Part shown: one piece after another, positions 17,186-34,833 of the stretch
Numbering within the stretch: the stretch's first letter is position 1
Layout of the letters: every line of letters begins with the position of its first letter
Notes under the pieces: model-generated
The model's input: only the letters and a program-made list of their open reading frames with translations
What the model was told of the DNA's origin: nothing
The model's database searches: none
Source of the DNA: Gemmatimonadota bacterium
GTDB taxonomy: Bacteria > Gemmatimonadota > Gemmatimonadetes > Gemmatimonadales > GWC2-71-9
Direction of reading: 5' to 3'
Length of the DNA stretch: 62,036 bases
Assembly (NCBI GenBank): GCA_016874005.1
Contig: VGVQ01000023.1
Span: forward strand, 1 to 62,036
Program-made: the position numbers and the translations under genes

Positions 17186-18544
17186 ATGTTCGCCCAGTTC
17201 ACCTATCGCGACGGTCCCGCTGTGGGAGCAACCCGCGTCGTTGGGCACGACTTCGCGACCCTGGGCCGAGACCCCCAGGCCGACGTTCCGCTCGATTCGG
17301 TGCAGTACCCTGAGGTCTCGGTTCGGCACGCGGCGGTGTTCAAGCAAGGTGGCGGTTACCTGCTCCGCGATCTCGGCAGCACCAACGGAACGTTCCTGAA
17401 CGGGACCCGAGTGCGGGGTGATCGTCCGATCGAGGTCGGCGACCGGATCCAACTCGGGCCCGGTGGACCGGTCGTCGAATTCGGCGCCACGGCGGTGCCG
17501 CCCCACGGGAACCGATCCGCCGCGGGAGCCACGCCGTCGCCGGCGAGCCGGCTCGAGATCCACGCCCCGCGTCAGCGGACCACCTCCCCGGTCGGTTACC
17601 GGCGACCGAATCCCCGACGGCGCCCCTGGCTCGTCGGGCTCGTCACGGTCGTGGTCCTGGGCGCTTCCGCCGCGATCGGCTTGGGGTATCAGGCCCGGCG
17701 GGCGGCGGAAGTGCTGGCCGCCCGCCGCGACGCGCTGCAGCGGCAAGCCGACGATGTCCGCAACCGGCTGGATGGGGCGAGGGCACCTAACGACGGCCTC
17801 CGGGCGGCGGTGCGCGCCGCCATTTCGGGCCTCGAGACCGTCAGGTCGGACCTCGGGGCGGCGGCCAGCGACTCGGCGGTCGATCGGGCCGCGGCCCGCT
17901 TGGACAGCCTGGCCACGGCGGTCGCGCCGGTGCTGGCGGCGATCGCCACCGACCCGACGGGGGCGCGGCGGGAAGGCGTCGGCCGGGTGGCCGTCATCAT
18001 TGGCGAGTTCGTCCGGGGGGCGACGGCGGCCGCCAGCGGCATCGCCTTGCTCCGGATCGGCGACACCACCTGGTTCGCGACCGAACGACGGACCGCGGTC
18101 GATTCGATCGGGGTCCCGGCGATCCGTTTCGCGGTCATCGCCGACGGCGACCGGGCGGCGGCGCTCGGCCGGCTGGTCCGCGCCGACGACTCGTTAGGCG
18201 TGGCCATCGTGGCGGTCATCCGGGTCGAGTCACCGGAGCCGTCGCCGTCCGGAAACGTCCCCAGGATCGGCGAAACGCTGGTCCAAGTCGGCTTTCCCTT
18301 CGGGGCCGACTCGTTGGGCGAGTGGCGGTCGACCGGGGCGGCGGCCCAGGCCGCGGTCGCGACCGTCACCGCGGTCGACTCCACTGCCGTTCGACTGACG
18401 GGATACGGCGTCGGGGGCTGGCCCGGGAGCGCGTTGCTCGACCGGGCGGGAGCCGTGGTGGGAATGGTGAGCGGCCCTCCCGGAGGTGATCTCAGGGTGA
18501 TTCCGATCGCCAGACTCCGCCGGCTGGTCGAGACCAAGCGCTAG
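17186..18544 (+). CDS. FHA domain - membrane helix - trypsin-like (probably inactive) protease-fold protein
   Basis: 452 aa. The N-terminal FHA domain (about 18-98) has the phosphothreonine-binding residues in LGRDP, VSVRHAAVF and LGSTNGTFLNG. A Pro/Arg linker leads to one membrane helix (148-168), then a coiled stretch rich in Ala/Arg (170-260). The outer C-terminal part (about 265-445) has strands resembling a trypsin/HtrA fold and ends VGGWPGSALLDRAGAVVGMVSG. That matches the position of the GNSGGP motif but lacks the normal GxSGG order, and no catalytic His or Asp is evident. I infer a sensor with a degenerate protease fold. Partner of the PP2C gene. Confidence 0.8.
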   Translation: MFAQFTYRDGPAVGATRVVGHDFATLGRDPQADVPLDSVQYPEVSVRHAAVFKQGGGYLLRDLGSTNGTFLNGTRVRGDRPIEVGDRIQLGPGGPVVEFGATAVPPHGNRSAAGATPSPASRLEIHAPRQRTTSPVGYRRPNPRRRPWLVGLVTVVVLGASAAIGLGYQARRAAEVLAARRDALQRQADDVRNRLDGARAPNDGLRAAVRAAISGLETVRSDLGAAASDSAVDRAAARLDSLATAVAPVLAAIATDPTGARREGVGRVAVIIGEFVRGATAAASGIALLRIGDTTWFATERRTAVDSIGVPAIRFAVIADGDRAAALGRLVRADDSLGVAIVAVIRVESPEPSPSGNVPRIGETLVQVGFPFGADSLGEWRSTGAAAQAAVATVTAVDSTAVRLTGYGVGGWPGSALLDRAGAVVGMVSGPPGGDLRVIPIARLRRLVETKR

Positions 18545-18597: not shown

Positions 18598-20232
18598 CTA
18601 ACGAAACAGCAGCCACCCCGGCAGGAGAGTCGCCCCGAGAATCGCCGCCGTCCAGGCCGCCCAGCTCGCGAGATCGCGCCCGAGGTCGTCGAGCGGCGCC
18701 AGACCGGTCACCTGTCGAATCGGGCCCCACCACCCGCCCGGCCGGACTCGTCGATAGAACGCCACCAGGGTCTCGGTCCGTTCGGGACGGGTCAGGAGCA
18801 TCACCGGGAACCAGACCGCGAGCGAGCCGAATGCGGTCAGCATCAGCCGCTGGCCGAAACTCAGGGCCGCGAGCGCCGGATGGAACGTCGCCAGCGCGAG
18901 CGCGAGACCGGCCCCCATCGCGGCCAGCTCAGCCCAGGCGTTGATCCGCCACCAGAACCAGCGCAGCAGCAACACCAGACCCGGACCGTTGCCGATCAGG
19001 ATCAGAAAGCGAAACACCTGGCCGACGTCATCCATCACGAACGAGAGGGTCGCGGCGAGCACGGTAAGCCCGATGGTGGCCCAGCGGGCGGCTCGGAGCA
19101 GTCGGGACTGGTCGGTGTCGCCGCTGAACCGGCCATAGAGATCGTGGACCAGGTAGCTCGCGCCCCAGTTCACCTGGGTGGACACGGTCGACATGAAGGC
19201 CGCCAGCAGGGAGGCGAACACCAAGCCCAAGAGTCCAGCCGGGAGGTACCGCTTCATGAGCAACGGGTACGCCAGCTCAGGATCCGACAGGCCGGGCAGG
19301 AGTACCATCGCCGCCAACCCCACCACCACCCACGGCCAGGTGCGGACCACGTAGTTGAGGACGTTGAACCAGATCGCCGCTCGCCTGGCATCGGCCTCGG
19401 ACCCGGTGGCCGCTAGGCGCTGGACGAACACCCCGCCGCCGTCCGAATTCCGGAAGGCCCACCACTGAATCGCGAGATAGCCGAAGAACGTCGACAGCGG
19501 CACCAAGGGATCGTCGCCCACCGGCGCCACCGCGAGGTGCGATGACTTCCCGGCGTCTCGGACGGCGTCGCCCAGGGCGGCGAAGCCACCCACGTCGCCA
19601 AGGGCGTACCCCATCACCAACACCGCCCCGACCATCGCAAGGACATACTGAACCAAGTCGGTGACGACGACGCCCCAGAGCCCCGAAGCGGCGGTGTACA
19701 CCAGCACCACGACGACGATCGGGATCACCGCCCACAGCCGCGGATCGCCGGGCAACGGCGGCAAGTTGTCGAGCAACCCCAAGCCGACGATCACCTTGCG
19801 CATCGCCAGCATCCCGTACCCGATGCTGATGCAGTTGAGCGGCACGGCGAACAGAAAGGCCCGGGTCGCCCGCAAGGCCGCGGCTGGCCGGCCGCCGTAC
19901 CGCAGCTCGGTGAGTTCCATGTCGGTGAGCACCATCGAGCGACGCCAGAGCTTGGCCAGCACCACGGCGAGAAAGACGTGGGAGAAAGCGAAACACCACC
20001 ACTCCCAGTTGCCGGCAATGCCCCTCCTGGCCACCAACCCCGCGATGTACAACGGGGTATCGACGTTGAAGGTGGTTGCCGCCATCGATGCGGTGGCGAG
20101 CCACCAGGGAATGGCGCGGCCCCCGACGAAGAACTCCGCCAGGTTCTTGGCGCCTCGCTTCGCGACGACCAGGCCGAGGGTGAGGGTTCCGATCAGGTAC
20201 GCGGCGACGACGAGCCAGTCGAGCGGGCTCAT
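18598..20232 (-). CDS. Sodium:solute symporter (SSF family)
   Basis: 544 aa from the ATG at 20232, which overlaps the nagZ-like stop (ATGA). It has about twelve or more membrane helices, starting DWLVVAAYLIGTLTLGLVV, then the family signature region FFVGGRAIPWWLATASMAATTFN (first unwound helix) and VNWGASYLVHDLYGRF. SSF proteins use the sodium gradient to import sugars, amino acids or organic acids. As the last gene of the murQ-anmK-nagZ-like operon it is a strong candidate importer of MurNAc-type sugars or breakdown products; that substrate is inferred from context only. Confidence 0.9.
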   Translation of the reverse strand: MSPLDWLVVAAYLIGTLTLGLVVAKRGAKNLAEFFVGGRAIPWWLATASMAATTFNVDTPLYIAGLVARRGIAGNWEWWCFAFSHVFLAVVLAKLWRRSMVLTDMELTELRYGGRPAAALRATRAFLFAVPLNCISIGYGMLAMRKVIVGLGLLDNLPPLPGDPRLWAVIPIVVVVLVYTAASGLWGVVVTDLVQYVLAMVGAVLVMGYALGDVGGFAALGDAVRDAGKSSHLAVAPVGDDPLVPLSTFFGYLAIQWWAFRNSDGGGVFVQRLAATGSEADARRAAIWFNVLNYVVRTWPWVVVGLAAMVLLPGLSDPELAYPLLMKRYLPAGLLGLVFASLLAAFMSTVSTQVNWGASYLVHDLYGRFSGDTDQSRLLRAARWATIGLTVLAATLSFVMDDVGQVFRFLILIGNGPGLVLLLRWFWWRINAWAELAAMGAGLALALATFHPALAALSFGQRLMLTAFGSLAVWFPVMLLTRPERTETLVAFYRRVRPGGWWGPIRQVTGLAPLDDLGRDLASWAAWTAAILGATLLPGWLLFR

Positions 20233-21614
20233 CCGAGACGCTGCGCCAGCCAGCGGCCGACCGCCTCCTGCATCAGCCGCTGGCGGTGCCACGCCAGCAA
20301 CGTCGGCGGGGCCGGCGACAACGCGGCCATGAGGCGGGGACCCGTGAACGCGACCGCGAGATCGCAAGGATCGGCCGCCGCGATGGTGGCGAGCGTCCGG
20401 GCGCCAAACCCGCCCCTGCCCTTGGATGCCCGGGGCTCGGCGAAGGCGAGCAGGATCCGGCTTCCACCAGTACCGAGCGGGACACCGAGGGCCGAGAGCG
20501 TTTCGGCGACGATCCGGTTGGACGACGCCGGGAAGGCGCCATCGAGATCGTCATCGGCGACGATCAGCTCGATCGGGGCCTCGAGCCGAACGGCGGGGCC
20601 GGCCGCGAGCAGTCGGTCGGCCAGGCCAGCCACGTCGAGTCCACCGGCGCCGGCAGGGAGACTCGCGGCGCGGCCGAGCGCCGCGTCGAGCCGACCGAGC
20701 GAGGCGGCTGCCGTCGCCGCGAAGCGGGGATCGTCCGCCACCGCCCGGCGGAGCGCCGCGATCGTCGCAGCCGGATCGGGCGGATAGAGGAGGATGTCGA
20801 GCCCGGCCGCGAGCGCCGCCACGGCCGGATCCGCCCCCCCGGCTCTGACCCCTTCCATGATCAGCGCGTCGCTCACGATCAGCCCGACGAAGCCCATCGA
20901 CCGGAGCAGCTGGAGAATCGGCGGCGACAGCGTGGCGGGCCGGCCGACCGGGTCGAGCGACCCGAAGGCCACGTGGCAGGTCATCACGGAGTCGACCCCG
21001 GCCTCGATGGCGGCGGCAAACGGCACCAGATCGGTCGCCCGGAGGATGTCCGCCGGAGTCTCGACCCGGCAGAGATGATCGTGCGAGTCACGGGTCGTTC
21101 GACCGTGGCCGGGAAAGTGCTTGGCGCACCCGAGCGCGCCACCCGCGGCCGCGCCGCGAATCCACCCGGTCACCGCTTTGGCCACGGCGGCGGGGTCGCC
21201 ACCGAACGCCCGGGTCTGGACGATCGGGTTTTCGGGCTCCACGTCGAGATCGGCAACCGGGGCGAAGACCCAGTCGACCCCGACGGACCGGGCATCGACC
21301 GCGGTGGTGAAACCGGCCGCCTCGACGACCGCCAGGTCGCCTAACGAGGCGAGGGCGGCCGGCGGGGGGATCTCCCGAAGCCCGGCGAATTGCTGCCCGG
21401 CCCCCCGCTCGAGATCGGCGCCGATCAGCAGCGGCGTCGCCGATCGGGCCCGGAGGTCCGCGGTCAGCGCGGCAACCCGCTCGGCCGGGCCGCCGAAGAC
21501 GATGAAACCGCCGACACCGGCAGCCAAGGCCGCGTCGATGCCGCTCGCCTCGTGGTCGAACCCGCTGTCGTCCCGCCACCGAATCGATGGCACCACCAGG
21601 CGAGCGACGTTCAC
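20229..21614 (-). CDS. Glycoside hydrolase family 3, beta-N-acetylglucosaminidase-like (NagZ-type)
   Basis: 461 aa from a GTG at 21614 overlapping the anmK stop (GTGA). The GH3 domain has GADLERGAGQQF, KHFPGHGRTTRDSH (the mobile His-Asp loop typical of NagZ-like enzymes), VMTCHVAFGSLDP and VSDALIMEGV, whose Asp is the expected nucleophile. It would release GlcNAc from GlcNAc-anhydroMurNAc or similar disaccharides. The C-terminal ~130 residues form an extra domain beyond single-domain cytoplasmic NagZ. No signal peptide at this start. Context with anmK and murQ supports muropeptide recycling. Confidence 0.88.
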   Translation of the reverse strand: MNVARLVVPSIRWRDDSGFDHEASGIDAALAAGVGGFIVFGGPAERVAALTADLRARSATPLLIGADLERGAGQQFAGLREIPPPAALASLGDLAVVEAAGFTTAVDARSVGVDWVFAPVADLDVEPENPIVQTRAFGGDPAAVAKAVTGWIRGAAAGGALGCAKHFPGHGRTTRDSHDHLCRVETPADILRATDLVPFAAAIEAGVDSVMTCHVAFGSLDPVGRPATLSPPILQLLRSMGFVGLIVSDALIMEGVRAGGADPAVAALAAGLDILLYPPDPAATIAALRRAVADDPRFAATAAASLGRLDAALGRAASLPAGAGGLDVAGLADRLLAAGPAVRLEAPIELIVADDDLDGAFPASSNRIVAETLSALGVPLGTGGSRILLAFAEPRASKGRGGFGARTLATIAAADPCDLAVAFTGPRLMAALSPAPPTLLAWHRQRLMQEAVGRWLAQRLG

Positions 21615-22714
21615 GCGGGGGTCACGACACCGAGCACCCTCGGACCTCGCGCGCCGGTGGCGGAGGGGAGGTTGCCGGGCTGGCCGTGAATGGTGAGATA
21701 CCCGAGCAGCGCGAACGCCACCGCCTCTTTCGCGTCGCCCGAGAAGAACACCTCGTCGAATCGGCGGACTCGGACTCGGGCACCGAGCCGGGCTTCGAGG
21801 CCAGCCATCACGGCTGGGTGATGGCGCCCGCCACCCGACACCAGGAGGTCGGCGGTGTCCGGCATCCACCGGCTCATCGCGGCGGCAACCGACGCCGTCG
21901 TCAACGCCACCGCCGTTGCCACGGCGTCGGCGGGACCCGCCCGCCGCAACAGCGCGGCCGCGTAGTCCGACCCGAACCGCTCCCGGCCGGTGCTCTTGGG
22001 CGGCACGGCGGTGAAATATTCGTCGGCCAGCAGTTCCGCCAACAGCGCCTCGTTCACCGATCCGGTGGCGCCGAGCCGACCGTCGACGTCGTACGGAAGC
22101 GCCGGATCGATCAGCCGGGCAAGGTCATCGATGACCGCCATGCCCGGGCCGGTGTCGAACGCAAAGGCCCCCTCGGTCACCGCCCGGCGAGCGACCCAGG
22201 TGACGTTGGCCATTCCCCCGAGGTTGAGCAGGGCCCGAGGATGATCGCTCCCGAAGAGGAGAACGTCCGCGATCGGCACCAGCGGGGCACCTTGCCCGCC
22301 CGCGGCGAGGTCACGACCCCGAAACCCGCTCACGACCCGGACACCGAACGCCTCGGCGAGGCGAGCGGGCTCGCCCAGCTGCCAGGTGACGATCGGCGGT
22401 TCGTGCCAGATGGTCTGGCCGTGGAAGGCGATCAGATCGAGGTCCGAGGCCCTGACATGGGCTTGGGCGAGCACTTCCGCCGTAGCCTCGACCGCCCATT
22501 CGGCGATGGCGTCGTGAAGGAGGGCCAACTCGCGGGTGGTGCCACGGGTGATCGCGGCCGAGAGGCGGGACCGGTAGTCCTTGGAGTAGGGCAGCTGAAC
22601 GAATCCCAGCAGCTCCGCGCGGGTCGGACCGGAGAACCGCACCAACGCCGCATCCATCCCGTCCAGCGAAGTACCGGACATCAAGCCAACCGCGAGCGTG
22701 GGGCGTTCCGTCAT
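21611..22714 (-). CDS. anmK: Anhydro-N-acetylmuramic acid kinase
   Basis: 367 aa. It phosphorylates and opens 1,6-anhydroMurNAc to MurNAc-6-phosphate. Family motifs are GLMSGTSLDGMD at the N-terminus, GFRGRDLAAGGQGAPLVP, NLGGMANVTW, FDTGPGMAVID and LVSGGGRHHPAVM. The ATG overlaps the murQ stop (ATGA), so product (MurNAc-6P) and next enzyme (MurQ etherase) are encoded side by side. Confidence 0.96.
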   Translation of the reverse strand: MTERPTLAVGLMSGTSLDGMDAALVRFSGPTRAELLGFVQLPYSKDYRSRLSAAITRGTTRELALLHDAIAEWAVEATAEVLAQAHVRASDLDLIAFHGQTIWHEPPIVTWQLGEPARLAEAFGVRVVSGFRGRDLAAGGQGAPLVPIADVLLFGSDHPRALLNLGGMANVTWVARRAVTEGAFAFDTGPGMAVIDDLARLIDPALPYDVDGRLGATGSVNEALLAELLADEYFTAVPPKSTGRERFGSDYAAALLRRAGPADAVATAVALTTASVAAAMSRWMPDTADLLVSGGGRHHPAVMAGLEARLGARVRVRRFDEVFFSGDAKEAVAFALLGYLTIHGQPGNLPSATGARGPRVLGVVTPA

Positions 22715-23643
22715 CGAGCCGGCACCCCCGGCGGGGGACCGATCACCGCCCGGACCCGGTGATCGGAGGCGGCGAGCCGAGCGTCGGCTTCGGCGCGGGA
22801 AAGCCCGGTCTTGGCCATGACGATGGCGCTCCGGACGCTGCCACCGGCGGCGTCGATCGCGGCGCGGGCCGCCCCGCGATCGACGCCGGTGACCTCCATC
22901 ACGATCCGCTCGCCTCGATCGATCAGCTTGGCGCTCCAGGCCTGCAGATCCACCATGAGGTTACCATAGGTCTTGCCCAACCGGACCATCGCGGCGGTCG
23001 TGAGGGTGTTGAGCACCAGCTTGGTGGCCGTGCCGGCTTTCATTCTGGTCGAGCCGGTCACCACCTCGGGTCCGGTGGGGAGGTAGATGACCACGTCGCA
23101 ATCGGCTCGGAGGCCCTGGGGCGGCTCCGCGCAAGCGACGAGTACCGTCTTGGCGCCTCGAGTGAGGGCCGCCCCGAGCGCGGCCCGAACGAACGGGGTG
23201 CCGCCGCTCGCGGCGATCCCCACGACGGTATCGTTGGGCCCGACTCCCCGCCCTTCGATGGCGTCCCGGCCGGCGTTGACGTCGTCCTCGGCTCCTTCGG
23301 CCGGCTTGACCAGGGCCGGGAGCCCACCCGCGATGATCCCCTGCACCATGTCGGGCGGTGTTCCGAACGTCGGGGGACACTCGGAGGCATCGAGCACCCC
23401 GAGCCGCCCGCTGGTGCCAGCACCGACGTAGAACAGCCTCCCGCCGGCCCGGAACGACTCCTCGATCAGCGACACGGCGGCTGCGATCTCGACCCGGGCC
23501 CCCGCGACGATGGCCGGCACGGTGGCGTCTTCGGCGTTGATGAGATCGACCAGCCCCAGGGGATCGGCGAGGTCGATTTCGGTGGAGCGTGGGTTGCGGC
23601 GTTCGGTCAGCCGTAACTGCTGCTCCCCGGTTTGGTTGGACAT
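22711..23643 (-). CDS. murQ: N-acetylmuramic acid 6-phosphate etherase
   Basis: 310 aa, usual length. It cleaves the lactyl ether of MurNAc-6P to give GlcNAc-6P and D-lactate. Visible: ERRNPRS near the start, the sugar-isomerase-type phosphosugar loop GAGTSGRLGVLDASECPPTFG (with the catalytic Glu in SECP), and VVTGSTRMKAGTATKLVLN. It is the first gene of the recycling operon and is divergent from ggt. A TTGCTT/AAAATT pair in the 49-base gap could be its promoter but is weak. Confidence 0.97.
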   Translation of the reverse strand: MSNQTGEQQLRLTERRNPRSTEIDLADPLGLVDLINAEDATVPAIVAGARVEIAAAVSLIEESFRAGGRLFYVGAGTSGRLGVLDASECPPTFGTPPDMVQGIIAGGLPALVKPAEGAEDDVNAGRDAIEGRGVGPNDTVVGIAASGGTPFVRAALGAALTRGAKTVLVACAEPPQGLRADCDVVIYLPTGPEVVTGSTRMKAGTATKLVLNTLTTAAMVRLGKTYGNLMVDLQAWSAKLIDRGERIVMEVTGVDRGAARAAIDAAGGSVRSAIVMAKTGLSRAEADARLAASDHRVRAVIGPPPGVPAR

Positions 23644-23692: not shown

Positions 23693-25603
23693 ATGCGCCA
23701 GGGTCTCGTCGCGATTCTCGCCGTCCTGGCTGGACCGGCGGTCGCCCAAGTCCACCCCAATTGGCCGCTGGCGGACAGCGCGATCACGGTCGAAGGATCG
23801 GCCGTCGTGGTATCGGGTCATGTCATCGCCAGCCAGGTCGGCCGGGCGATCTTGGAGCAGGGCGGAAACGCCATCGACGCCGCCGTGGCGACCGGGTTCG
23901 CCCTCGCGGTGGTCTATCCCGAAGCCGGCAACGTCGGGGGTGGCGGTTTCATGGTCATCAGGCTCGCCAACGGGTCGAGCTACGCCCTCGACTACCGCGA
24001 GACCGCACCCGCCAAGGCTCGTTGGAACATGTACATCGGCCCGGACGGGAATCCCACCGACAAGAGTTGGACGGGGCATCTGGCGCCCGGCGTGCCCGGG
24101 AGCGTGGCTGGGCTCGCCGAGGCGCATCGCCGGTTCGGCACGCTGCCGTGGCGGGCGCTGCTCGAGCCCGCCATTGCCCTGGCCCGCGACGGCTTCGTGG
24201 TCGACCAATACCGCCACCGGTCGATCGCCGGCGACTCGGCGCGGTTGTCCCGATTCGCCGCCTCAGCGAAGCAATTCCTTCCAGACGGCCGACCGCCCGC
24301 GCCGGGCAGCGTGCTGGTCCAAAGGGATCTGGCCGCCACCTTGGAGGCGATCCGCGACCGCGGCGCCGCCGGCTTCTATCGGGGTCCCGTCGCCCGGCTG
24401 ATCGTCGCCGAGATGCGCCGGGGTGGCGGGATCATCAGCGCCACCGACTTGGCGGGCTACCGACCCCGGTGGCGGGAGCCGATCCGGTTCTCCTATCGGG
24501 GGTACCAGGTCATTTCGATGCCCCCGGTCTCCTCGGGCGGGGTGACGCTGGCCCTGATGATGAACATCCTCGAGGGCTACGACTCGATGCCCCCGTTCGG
24601 CTCGGCGGATCTGCTCCACCGCGAGGCCGAGGCGATGCGCCGGGCGTTCATCGAGCGGAACCGTTCGTTAGGCGACCCCGCCTTCGTCGCCAACCCGATC
24701 GCCCGGATGACGAGCAAGCGATACGCCGCCCGGCGCCGGGCAGAGATCGATCTGGCCCGGGCAACGCCGACGGCCTCGGTGAGCCCGGTGCTCAAAGAAG
24801 GGGCGTCCACCACCCATTACTCGGTGGTCGACCGCGACGGTGTGGCGGTCAGCACCACCACGACGCTCAACAACAGCTATGGCAGCGCGGTGACCGTGAC
24901 CGGGGCCGGATTCCTGCTCAACGACGAGATGGACGACTTCACCACCGCCCCCGGCAAGCCCAACAACTACGGGCTGGTCCAAGGACGAGCCAATGGCATC
25001 GCCCCAGGGAAACGGATGTTGTCGGCGATGACGCCGTCGATCGTTCTGGATCGGGAGGGACAGCTGTACCTGGTCGTCGGGACCCCGGGCGGGCCGACGA
25101 TCATCACCCAGGTGTACCACGTCATCAGCAACCTGATCGACCACGGCATGAGCCTGCCAGCCGCGCTGGCCGCGCCACGACTCCACCATCAGTCGCTGCC
25201 GGATCGGATCCTCCTCGAAGACGGTGGCTTCAGCCCCGAGGTGGTCGCTGCCCTGGAAGCCAAAGGGCACCCGGTGGCGACCCGGAGCTACATGGGGGAC
25301 GTCGAAGCGATCATCAGAACGCCGCGGGGCTGGCTGGGAGCCAGTGACCCGCGGCGGGGAGGCGGCGCTCAGCCCTTCAGACTGAACAGGCTCTTGAGCG
25401 CGATCACGATCTTGGCGCCGACCGGAACGATCACGTCGCGATCGGCGGAATTCACGGCGACAGCCGTGCCGGCCGCCGCCCCGATCACCCCGCCGACCAC
25501 GGCGCCCTTCTTCTTCCCACTGAGCACCCGGCCCACGACCGCGCCGGCGGCCGCTCGGCACCGACTTTGGCGGCGTCGCCAGCCTGGACTCCCCGTCCCT
25601 TGA
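23693..25603 (+). CDS. ggt: Gamma-glutamyltransferase (glutathione hydrolase), with aberrant C-terminus
   Basis: 636 aa with a signal peptide (LVAILAVLAGPAVAQ). It is a periplasmic N-terminal nucleophile hydrolase that cleaves gamma-glutamyl bonds. Motifs: VVSGHVIASQVGRAILEQGGNAIDAAVA, GGGGFMVIR, DYRETAP, the autoprocessing site STTHYSVVD (nucleophile Thr373) and LSAMTPSIVL. The usual C-terminus DPRRGGGA is reached at about residue 560, but instead of stopping the frame continues some 75 residues (RLNRLLSAITI...). That segment is antisense to the tail of the neighbouring lipoprotein gene and looks non-native. Confidence 0.92.
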   Translation: MRQGLVAILAVLAGPAVAQVHPNWPLADSAITVEGSAVVVSGHVIASQVGRAILEQGGNAIDAAVATGFALAVVYPEAGNVGGGGFMVIRLANGSSYALDYRETAPAKARWNMYIGPDGNPTDKSWTGHLAPGVPGSVAGLAEAHRRFGTLPWRALLEPAIALARDGFVVDQYRHRSIAGDSARLSRFAASAKQFLPDGRPPAPGSVLVQRDLAATLEAIRDRGAAGFYRGPVARLIVAEMRRGGGIISATDLAGYRPRWREPIRFSYRGYQVISMPPVSSGGVTLALMMNILEGYDSMPPFGSADLLHREAEAMRRAFIERNRSLGDPAFVANPIARMTSKRYAARRRAEIDLARATPTASVSPVLKEGASTTHYSVVDRDGVAVSTTTTLNNSYGSAVTVTGAGFLLNDEMDDFTTAPGKPNNYGLVQGRANGIAPGKRMLSAMTPSIVLDREGQLYLVVGTPGGPTIITQVYHVISNLIDHGMSLPAALAAPRLHHQSLPDRILLEDGGFSPEVVAALEAKGHPVATRSYMGDVEAIIRTPRGWLGASDPRRGGGAQPFRLNRLLSAITILAPTGTITSRSAEFTATAVPAAAPITPPTTAPFFFPLSTRPTTAPAAARHRLWRRRQPGLPVP

Positions 25604-33804: not shown

Positions 33805-34833
33805 TCAGGCCCGAGCGGTGACCCCGAGACCCGGCGAGTCGGGTAGCCGGATCCGGCCCCCGGCGATGGAGGCCCCGACATAGGGATCGTGGGCCAGCAA
33901 CGCCGCGCCATCGAGATCGGCGATGTCGACGAGGGGGGTGAAATGCGCCGCCGCGGTGATCCCGATCGAGCTTTCGATCATGCAGCCCACCATGACCATG
34001 AGGTGGTGCGCCCGGGCGATGGCGATCATCCGGAGGGCTTCTCGCAGGCTCCCGGTCTTGGCCAGCTTGATGTTGATCCCGTCGACCAGGCCCACCAGCC
34101 TCGGGATGTCGGCGGCCACCAGGCAGCTTTCGTCCACGATCACCGGAATCCGCGACGCCCGCGCTACCGCCGCGAGGCCTTCGAGGTCGGTGGCCGGCAA
34201 CGGCTGTTCCAGCACCGTGACGCCGAACTCCTCCAGCACCGGGAGCATCCCGATCGCCTGTTTCCGGGTCCAGCCACAGTTGGCGTCGACCCGAAGCTCG
34301 CGATCGGTGACCTCCCTGATCGCCCGGAGGATCTCGAGGTCGTTATCGAGCCCGAGCTTGATCTTGAGGATCGGGTACTGCTCCGCCTCGAGCACCTTCT
34401 TCTTGATCATCTCCGCCGTGTCGATCCCGATCGTGAAGGTCGACATCGGCGCCTTCGCGGCATCGAGCCCCCAGAGTTTCCAAAGCGGCACGCCGAGTCG
34501 CTTGCCAACCAAGTCGTGCAACGCGGTCGACAAGGCGGCCCGCACCGAGTTGTTCCCGATCATGGCCCGTTCGAGGGCTCGTTCGGCCTCTTCGAGGTCG
34601 AACGCGGTTTCGGGCATCGCGGTGGCGTACGTCTCCAGAGCGGCGAGAACCGTCTCGCAGGTCTCGCCGTAGAACTTCTGGGGCGTCGCCTCGCCCAGGC
34701 CTTCCAGTCCGTCGTGGTCGATGACCCGGACCAGGACCGTTCGGTACGAGTCCTGGTTCCCCCGGGCGATCTTGAACGGGTACTTGGTCTTGAGGGTGAG
34801 GATTTCGGCCTGAATGCGGAGGCGATTGGACAC
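33805..34833 (-). CDS. Enolase-superfamily dipeptide epimerase (L-Ala-D/L-Glu epimerase-like)
   Basis: 342 aa, GTG start at 34833. A muconate-lactonising-type barrel with the epimerase residues: YPILKIKLG (catalytic Lys of KxK), VDANCGW, VLEQPLP and VDESC as metal ligands, and GINIKLAKTG (second catalytic Lys). Such enzymes epimerise dipeptides, often L-Ala-D-Glu released from peptidoglycan, which would fit the recycling operon elsewhere in the window. Specificity is not decided by sequence alone. A promoter candidate lies upstream. Confidence 0.88.
   Translation of the reverse strand: MSNRLRIQAEILTLKTKYPFKIARGNQDSYRTVLVRVIDHDGLEGLGEATPQKFYGETCETVLAALETYATAMPETAFDLEEAERALERAMIGNNSVRAALSTALHDLVGKRLGVPLWKLWGLDAAKAPMSTFTIGIDTAEMIKKKVLEAEQYPILKIKLGLDNDLEILRAIREVTDRELRVDANCGWTRKQAIGMLPVLEEFGVTVLEQPLPATDLEGLAAVARASRIPVIVDESCLVAADIPRLVGLVDGINIKLAKTGSLREALRMIAIARAHHLMVMVGCMIESSIGITAAAHFTPLVDIADLDGAALLAHDPYVGASIAGGRIRLPDSPGLGVTARA

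Follow-up and report, generated by a model that had tools for sequence, protein, structure and literature searches.

The window analyzed here, a 62,036-nucleotide stretch of DNA, is contig 23 (VGVQ01000023.1) of a 3.88 Mb genome, 97% complete, from a bacterium whose phylum was called Gemmatimonadota from close homologues in named records. It carries a row of four genes: murQ, anmK, a nagZ-type gene of glycoside hydrolase family 3 (GH3) and a gene for a protein of the sodium:solute symporter family (SSF). We consider it fairly probable that this operon serves the recycling of peptidoglycan amino sugars, and that the SSF protein encoded by its last gene does the work of AmpG without being homologous to it. 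The SSF protein probably replaces AmpG because no AmpG was found in the genome, because the gene order is conserved, and because AmpG occupies the same slot in one of a congeneric pair of genomes (G047 and G095). These observations support the original prediction, made from the sequence of the window, that the SSF protein is a dedicated importer taking the place of AmpG.

The four-gene unit and its symporter

The whole unit lies on the minus strand, from 23643 to 18598. The product of murQ (22711–23643) is an N-acetylmuramic acid 6-phosphate etherase of 310 residues (TIGR00274 equivalog, 344.8 bits; cut-off 302), and that of anmK (21611–22714) is an anhydro-N-acetylmuramic acid kinase of 367 residues (PF03702, 309.4 bits, cut-off 24; NCBIfam NF007148, 386.6 bits, cut-off 387). 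There follow the GH3 gene (20229–21614; GTG start, 461 residues; PF00933, 198.6 bits), encoding a NagZ-type β-N-acetylhexosaminidase predicted to be cytoplasmic, and the SSF gene (18598–20232; 544 residues; PF00474, 108.9 bits, cut-off 22.8), encoding an SLC5-type symporter that is a predicted amino-sugar importer. Stop and start codons overlap at all three junctions, i.e., as ATGA between murQ and anmK (22711–22714), GTGA between anmK and the GH3 gene (21611–21614) and ATGA between the GH3 and SSF genes (20229–20232). Sequence and family profiles confirmed this row of genes with its ATGA and GTGA overlaps, as originally described, and the overlaps are consistent with a single translation unit. 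The same four-gene order, murQ-anmK-GH3-SSF, had been suggested as something to look for in relatives, and was found in several Gemmatimonadota families (f1, f2, f3, f7 and f9). Other genomes show both the gene order and the overlaps again, so the arrangement in the window is not due to chance.

The GH3 enzyme contains the NagZ signature KHFPGHG-x4-DSH (KHFPGHGRTTRDSH), which fits the pattern KH(F/I)PGHG-x4-5-D(S/T)H, and a crude hydrophobicity test revealed no hydrophobic stretch at its N terminus. Because of these two features it is most likely a cytoplasmic NagZ, despite a score of 150.2 bits with the NCBI NagZ equivalog NF003740, below the cut-off of 207. Its best solved relatives are GH3 hexosaminidases.

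The SSF protein is not a member of the AmpG family (TIGR00901), which belongs to the major facilitator superfamily (MFS). Its AlphaFold model (pLDDT 88.7) matched the fold of human SGLT2 with a Z score of 33.6, and those of vSGLT and SiaT with 31.6 (the matches to these transporters lay at about 31–34). Residues A52, A345, S348 and T349 align with A62, A361, S364 and S365 of vSGLT, which we take to form the Na2 site; A52, A345 and S348 are invariant in 36 homologues, and T349 is nearly so. Several positions that presumably bind galactose in vSGLT, such as Q69 and N64, are not conserved in the aligned SSF protein. As modeled, the protein would fit a Na+-coupled importer of a sugar other than that carried by vSGLT. 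A genome-wide look for ampG, also proposed originally, found none: the best match to TIGR00901 in the 97% complete genome scored 11.4 bits (cut-off 350) and lay elsewhere than the SSF gene.

The transporter slot in related genomes

We compared the locus with 78 further anmK regions and two regions taken around SSF genes. A recurring order in the phylum was ggt, murQ-anmK-(GH3) and, beyond these, genes for FHA and PP2C proteins, of which the FHA gene is convergent; the content of the slot after murQ-anmK-(GH3) varied, being SSF, AmpG or no transporter. In two genomes of one genus the slot has conserved genes on either side and differs in content, with SSF in G047 and AmpG in G095; the flanking proteins of the two are 74–97% identical, their MurQ proteins 75% and their GH3 proteins 78%. 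AmpG is also found in the slot on the same strand in G010 and G032, straight after anmK in G016 and G126, and converging on the GH3 gene in G008, G018, G048, G049 and G066. In G037 and G132 the slot is empty, the GH3 gene running directly up to the FHA gene; the AmpG matches of these two genomes, and that of G041, lie on a different contig from anmK. Within its genus, as sampled, the window genome stands alone in carrying the SSF and lacking AmpG; all four other species have AmpG and no SSF of the 61-row clade described below.

Among 200 Gemmatimonadota genomes, 34 were scored as having an SSF in or close to that clade (46–100% identity), a number that includes two (G097 and G177; 46–48% identity) whose proteins fall just outside it; in a 35th, G088, the SSF gene is cut by a contig end. 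AmpG (TIGR00901, at least 120 bits) was present in 25 genomes, and the two transporters very seldom coincide, with a single genome (G075) having both. With kinship ignored, Fisher's exact test gave p = 0.047 for all genomes and p = 0.015 among AnmK carriers. AnmK was present in 33 of the 34 SSF genomes versus 126 of the 166 others, and in the lone SSF genome with no AnmK match (G185) the contig ends inside the GH3 gene. A search of 74 cyanobacterial genomes, using one joined query (AnmK, SSF and AmpG) that reaches fairly close homologues only, yielded ten with SSF, 13 with AmpG and none with both (Fisher p = 0.13). On the AnmK tree, the SSF and AmpG traits each change about ten times.

The clade of 61 rows (support 99) unites the operon members from Gemmatimonadota with homologues from Rhodothermaceae and cyanobacteria, the latter including Prochlorococcus and Synechococcus. 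In Prochlorococcus and marine Synechococcus (L106–L108, L110, L117 and L123) the SSF gene is remote from anmK, with an RlmN-type gene on one side and a conserved row of genes on the other, and the neighbors of the cyanobacterial SSF genes (RlmN-type, HEAT and GNAT genes) gave no functional hint. Three Dadabacteria loci have the order murQ-anmK-GH3-SSF with more distant SSF proteins, outside the clade, and one record titled Deltaproteobacteria (Myxococcota in the tree taxonomy) has murQ-anmK-SSF, again with an SSF outside it. In the wider family around the clade, SSF genes occur beside NamZ, GH20, NagA-type, ROK or MurQ genes.

The SSF proteins linked to MurQ in Bacteroidota (L313, L318 and L323, one of them also linked to NamZ) belong to another branch, separated from the operon group by a long, well-supported internode. 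They group with a second SSF type found in NamZ clusters, including a copy on contig C3 of the window genome. These three proteins were used to represent the setting of MurT, a known SSF-superfamily transporter of N-acetylmuramic acid (MurNAc), in place of Tf_MurT, and no MurK was identified beside them; judged by these proxies, the operon SSF would lie apart from MurT, and the idea that it is a MurT orthologue was provisionally set aside. Most sampled Bacteroidota murQ loci have no SSF nearby. The C3 copy belongs to a second amino-sugar locus of the window genome (L245, G000:C3:26500-46000), where NamZ and a GH3 enzyme with a signal-peptide-like N terminus are encoded 5 kb from it. Clusters of the type NamZ-GH3-GH3-SSF-SSF recur in Gemmatimonadota (L253 and L255–L257), and L255–L257 have one SSF from each main branch.

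Two plus-strand genes flank the unit. The divergent ggt (23693–25603; TIGR00066, 511.7 bits), which lies outside the unit with 49 bases between its start codon and that of murQ, encodes a γ-glutamyltransferase and is the commonest neighbor of the operon across the phylum, being present in 54 of the compared loci (component c1). At the downstream border of the slot is the convergent gene with FHA and trypsin-like domains (17186–18544; Pfam FHA and Trypsin_2), which recurs in that order as component c11. The suggestion that Ggt and a dipeptide epimerase encoded at 33805 handle the peptide part of the imported compounds gained no direct support. For Ggt, a conserved divergent neighbor, such a role would be a guess, as it would for the epimerase-like gene (33805–34833), which is 10 kb away and has as its best model DgcA (N-acetyl-D-Glu racemase), at a score below cut-off.

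Proposed pathway, cargo and alternatives

In the pathway that we propose, periplasmic turnover of peptidoglycan, presumably by lytic transglycosylases and amidases, would yield the disaccharide of N-acetylglucosamine (GlcNAc) and 1,6-anhydroMurNAc. The SSF protein would carry this GlcNAc-anhydroMurNAc over the inner membrane together with Na+, as its clade, fold and intact Na2 site suggest. NagZ would then split the disaccharide into GlcNAc and anhydroMurNAc, AnmK would phosphorylate the latter to MurNAc-6P, and MurQ would convert MurNAc-6P to GlcNAc-6P and D-lactate. The reactions of NagZ, AnmK and MurQ are the established chemistry of these families.

We infer the substrate of the SSF protein, the peptide-free state of that substrate and the coupling to Na+. 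Judged from the genes that were and were not found, the cargo that we tentatively favor is GlcNAc-anhydroMurNAc free of peptide. A GlcNAc-linked cargo would be natural because the operon NagZ appears to be cytoplasmic. Neither an AmpD domain (PF01510) nor Mpl was found in the window genome, where the best match to the Mpl model (E = 9e-46) was far below the Mpl group, so that the peptides probably come off ahead of import and the bare disaccharide would be what is carried. The peptide-free state is the least certain step, and would no longer hold if the cell had a cytoplasmic amidase of another kind. PF01510 also had no match in 21 of the 26 SSF and AmpG genomes checked. Mpl was considered as a general marker of peptide import, but its distribution (5 of 34 SSF genomes versus 10 of 25 AmpG genomes) was too mixed to be of use beyond its absence from the window genome. 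Of the cargoes named in the original prediction (MurNAc, anhydroMurNAc or the disaccharide), the disaccharide is thus likely and free MurNAc less so.

Several observations weigh against the proposal that the SSF protein stands in for AmpG. Its substrate was assigned indirectly, from genomic context, and AmpG-like import of GlcNAc-anhydroMurNAc compounds was deduced only from the exchange with AmpG. One of the 200 Gemmatimonadota genomes (G075) has both the SSF and a weak AmpG-like match (123 bits); in this genome, neither gene adjoins anmK (G075:C1). A phylogeny-aware count of independent pairs gave 3.1 for and 0.3 against mutual exclusion, too few for significance (median p = 0.25). The SSF gene does not adjoin anmK in some members of family f5 (G069, G075 and G166) or in cyanobacteria, and the presence of AnmK in all 25 of 25 SSF-bearing cyanobacterial genomes was discarded as support, because nearly all sampled cyanobacteria carry AnmK. 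About a hundred AnmK-bearing Gemmatimonadota, i.e., most of them, have neither AmpG nor an SSF of the clade, so AnmK does not require either transporter; these genomes are likely to import by a third route or through other members of the wider SSF family. Transporter-less anmK loci include L169, L172, L174 and L205–L216. Finally, distant SSF relatives are encoded beside GH20, NagA-type or ROK genes, so that a GlcNAc-type cargo is possible.

It is rather unlikely that the SSF protein imports a free monosaccharide (MurNAc or anhydroMurNAc) in the manner of MurT, with NagZ acting on something else. There is a precedent in MurT itself, a MurNAc transporter of the sodium symporter superfamily encoded with murK and murQ (PMC5790795), and NamZ (C3:40207) and the GH3 enzyme with the signal-peptide-like N terminus could release monosaccharides outside the cell. 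However, the kinase of the operon is AnmK, which acts on anhydroMurNAc, with no gene for MurK or another kinase in the unit; the apparently cytoplasmic NagZ suggests that GlcNAc-linked sugars are imported; and the Bacteroidota MurQ-linked proteins, which stand for MurT in the tree, lie on the other branch with the C3 copy. Import of GlcNAc or another GlcNAc-containing sugar, the operon then serving general amino-sugar catabolism, appears improbable. This reading would fit the presence of GH20, NagA-type, ROK and NamZ genes alongside those for relatives with about 40% identity, but the close clade goes with AnmK and NagZ and changes places with AmpG, the known cargo of which bears GlcNAc-anhydroMurNAc (PMC13046382). 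We regard it as highly improbable that the exchange with AmpG reflects coincidental gene loss and that the SSF protein carries an unrelated solute. The non-significant independent-pairs test and the many genomes with neither transporter would be in line with coincidence, but the operon order is kept over several families and phyla, the swap in the same slot occurred within one genus, and the exclusive pattern is repeated in two phyla.

Extending the replacement of AmpG from the window to the whole clade is a less secure step. The chances seem evenly balanced that the SSF proteins of Gemmatimonadota and of certain cyanobacteria, some Prochlorococcus and Synechococcus among them, together with the related Dadabacteria members, are a Na+-driven equivalent of AmpG for GlcNAc-anhydroMurNAc, and that the two transporters have replaced one another several times.

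Comparison with known systems

In bacteria that keep AnmK, MurQ or NagZ without AmpG, the importer is known in only a few groups. According to a 2026 paper on Caulobacter, AmpG is the only one of the known transporters to recognize muropeptides with a GlcNAc-anhydroMurNAc unit (PMC13046382), and this is the gap that our finding addresses. In the open-access literature we found no report of an SSF importer of anhydromuropeptides and nothing apt on AmpG in cyanobacteria. If correct, our proposal names a candidate importer in Gemmatimonadota and some Cyanobacteria, describes how two unrelated transporter folds have repeatedly changed places in one slot of a pathway, and extends the cargo range of SSF proteins from MurNAc (MurT) to an anhydro-disaccharide.

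AmpG would match the operon SSF in predicted cargo unit and in pathway position, and in relatives it occupies the same slot, after murQ-anmK-nagZ (G010 and G095) or after murQ-anmK (G016 and G126). However, AmpG is an MFS protein, whereas the operon SSF belongs to an unrelated family with a LeuT-type fold and predicted coupling to Na+. The SSF transporters of solved structure, vSGLT, SGLT1/2 and SiaT, have the whole fold and the Na2-site residues in common with the operon SSF, at about 20% identity.

MurT of Tannerella forsythia resembles the operon SSF in its superfamily, in being encoded in an operon with murQ and in having a muramic sugar as cargo (PMC5790795). Its cargo is free MurNAc and the associated kinase is MurK (PMC5790795; PMC7670621), whereas in place of the MurK of the murTKQ operon the unit described here has AnmK and NagZ. 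The premise that Gram-negative bacteria normally import anhydromuropeptides through AmpG has a published exception in YejBEF-YepA of Agrobacterium, an unrelated transporter that takes the place of AmpG and is the solution in Rhizobiales (PMC9790009). As proposed here for the operon SSF, YejBEF-YepA is a non-homologous replacement of AmpG where the other recycling enzymes stay (PMC9790009). Unlike the operon SSF, it is an ABC transporter with a periplasmic binding protein, which imports peptide-bearing muropeptides into a host with AmpD.

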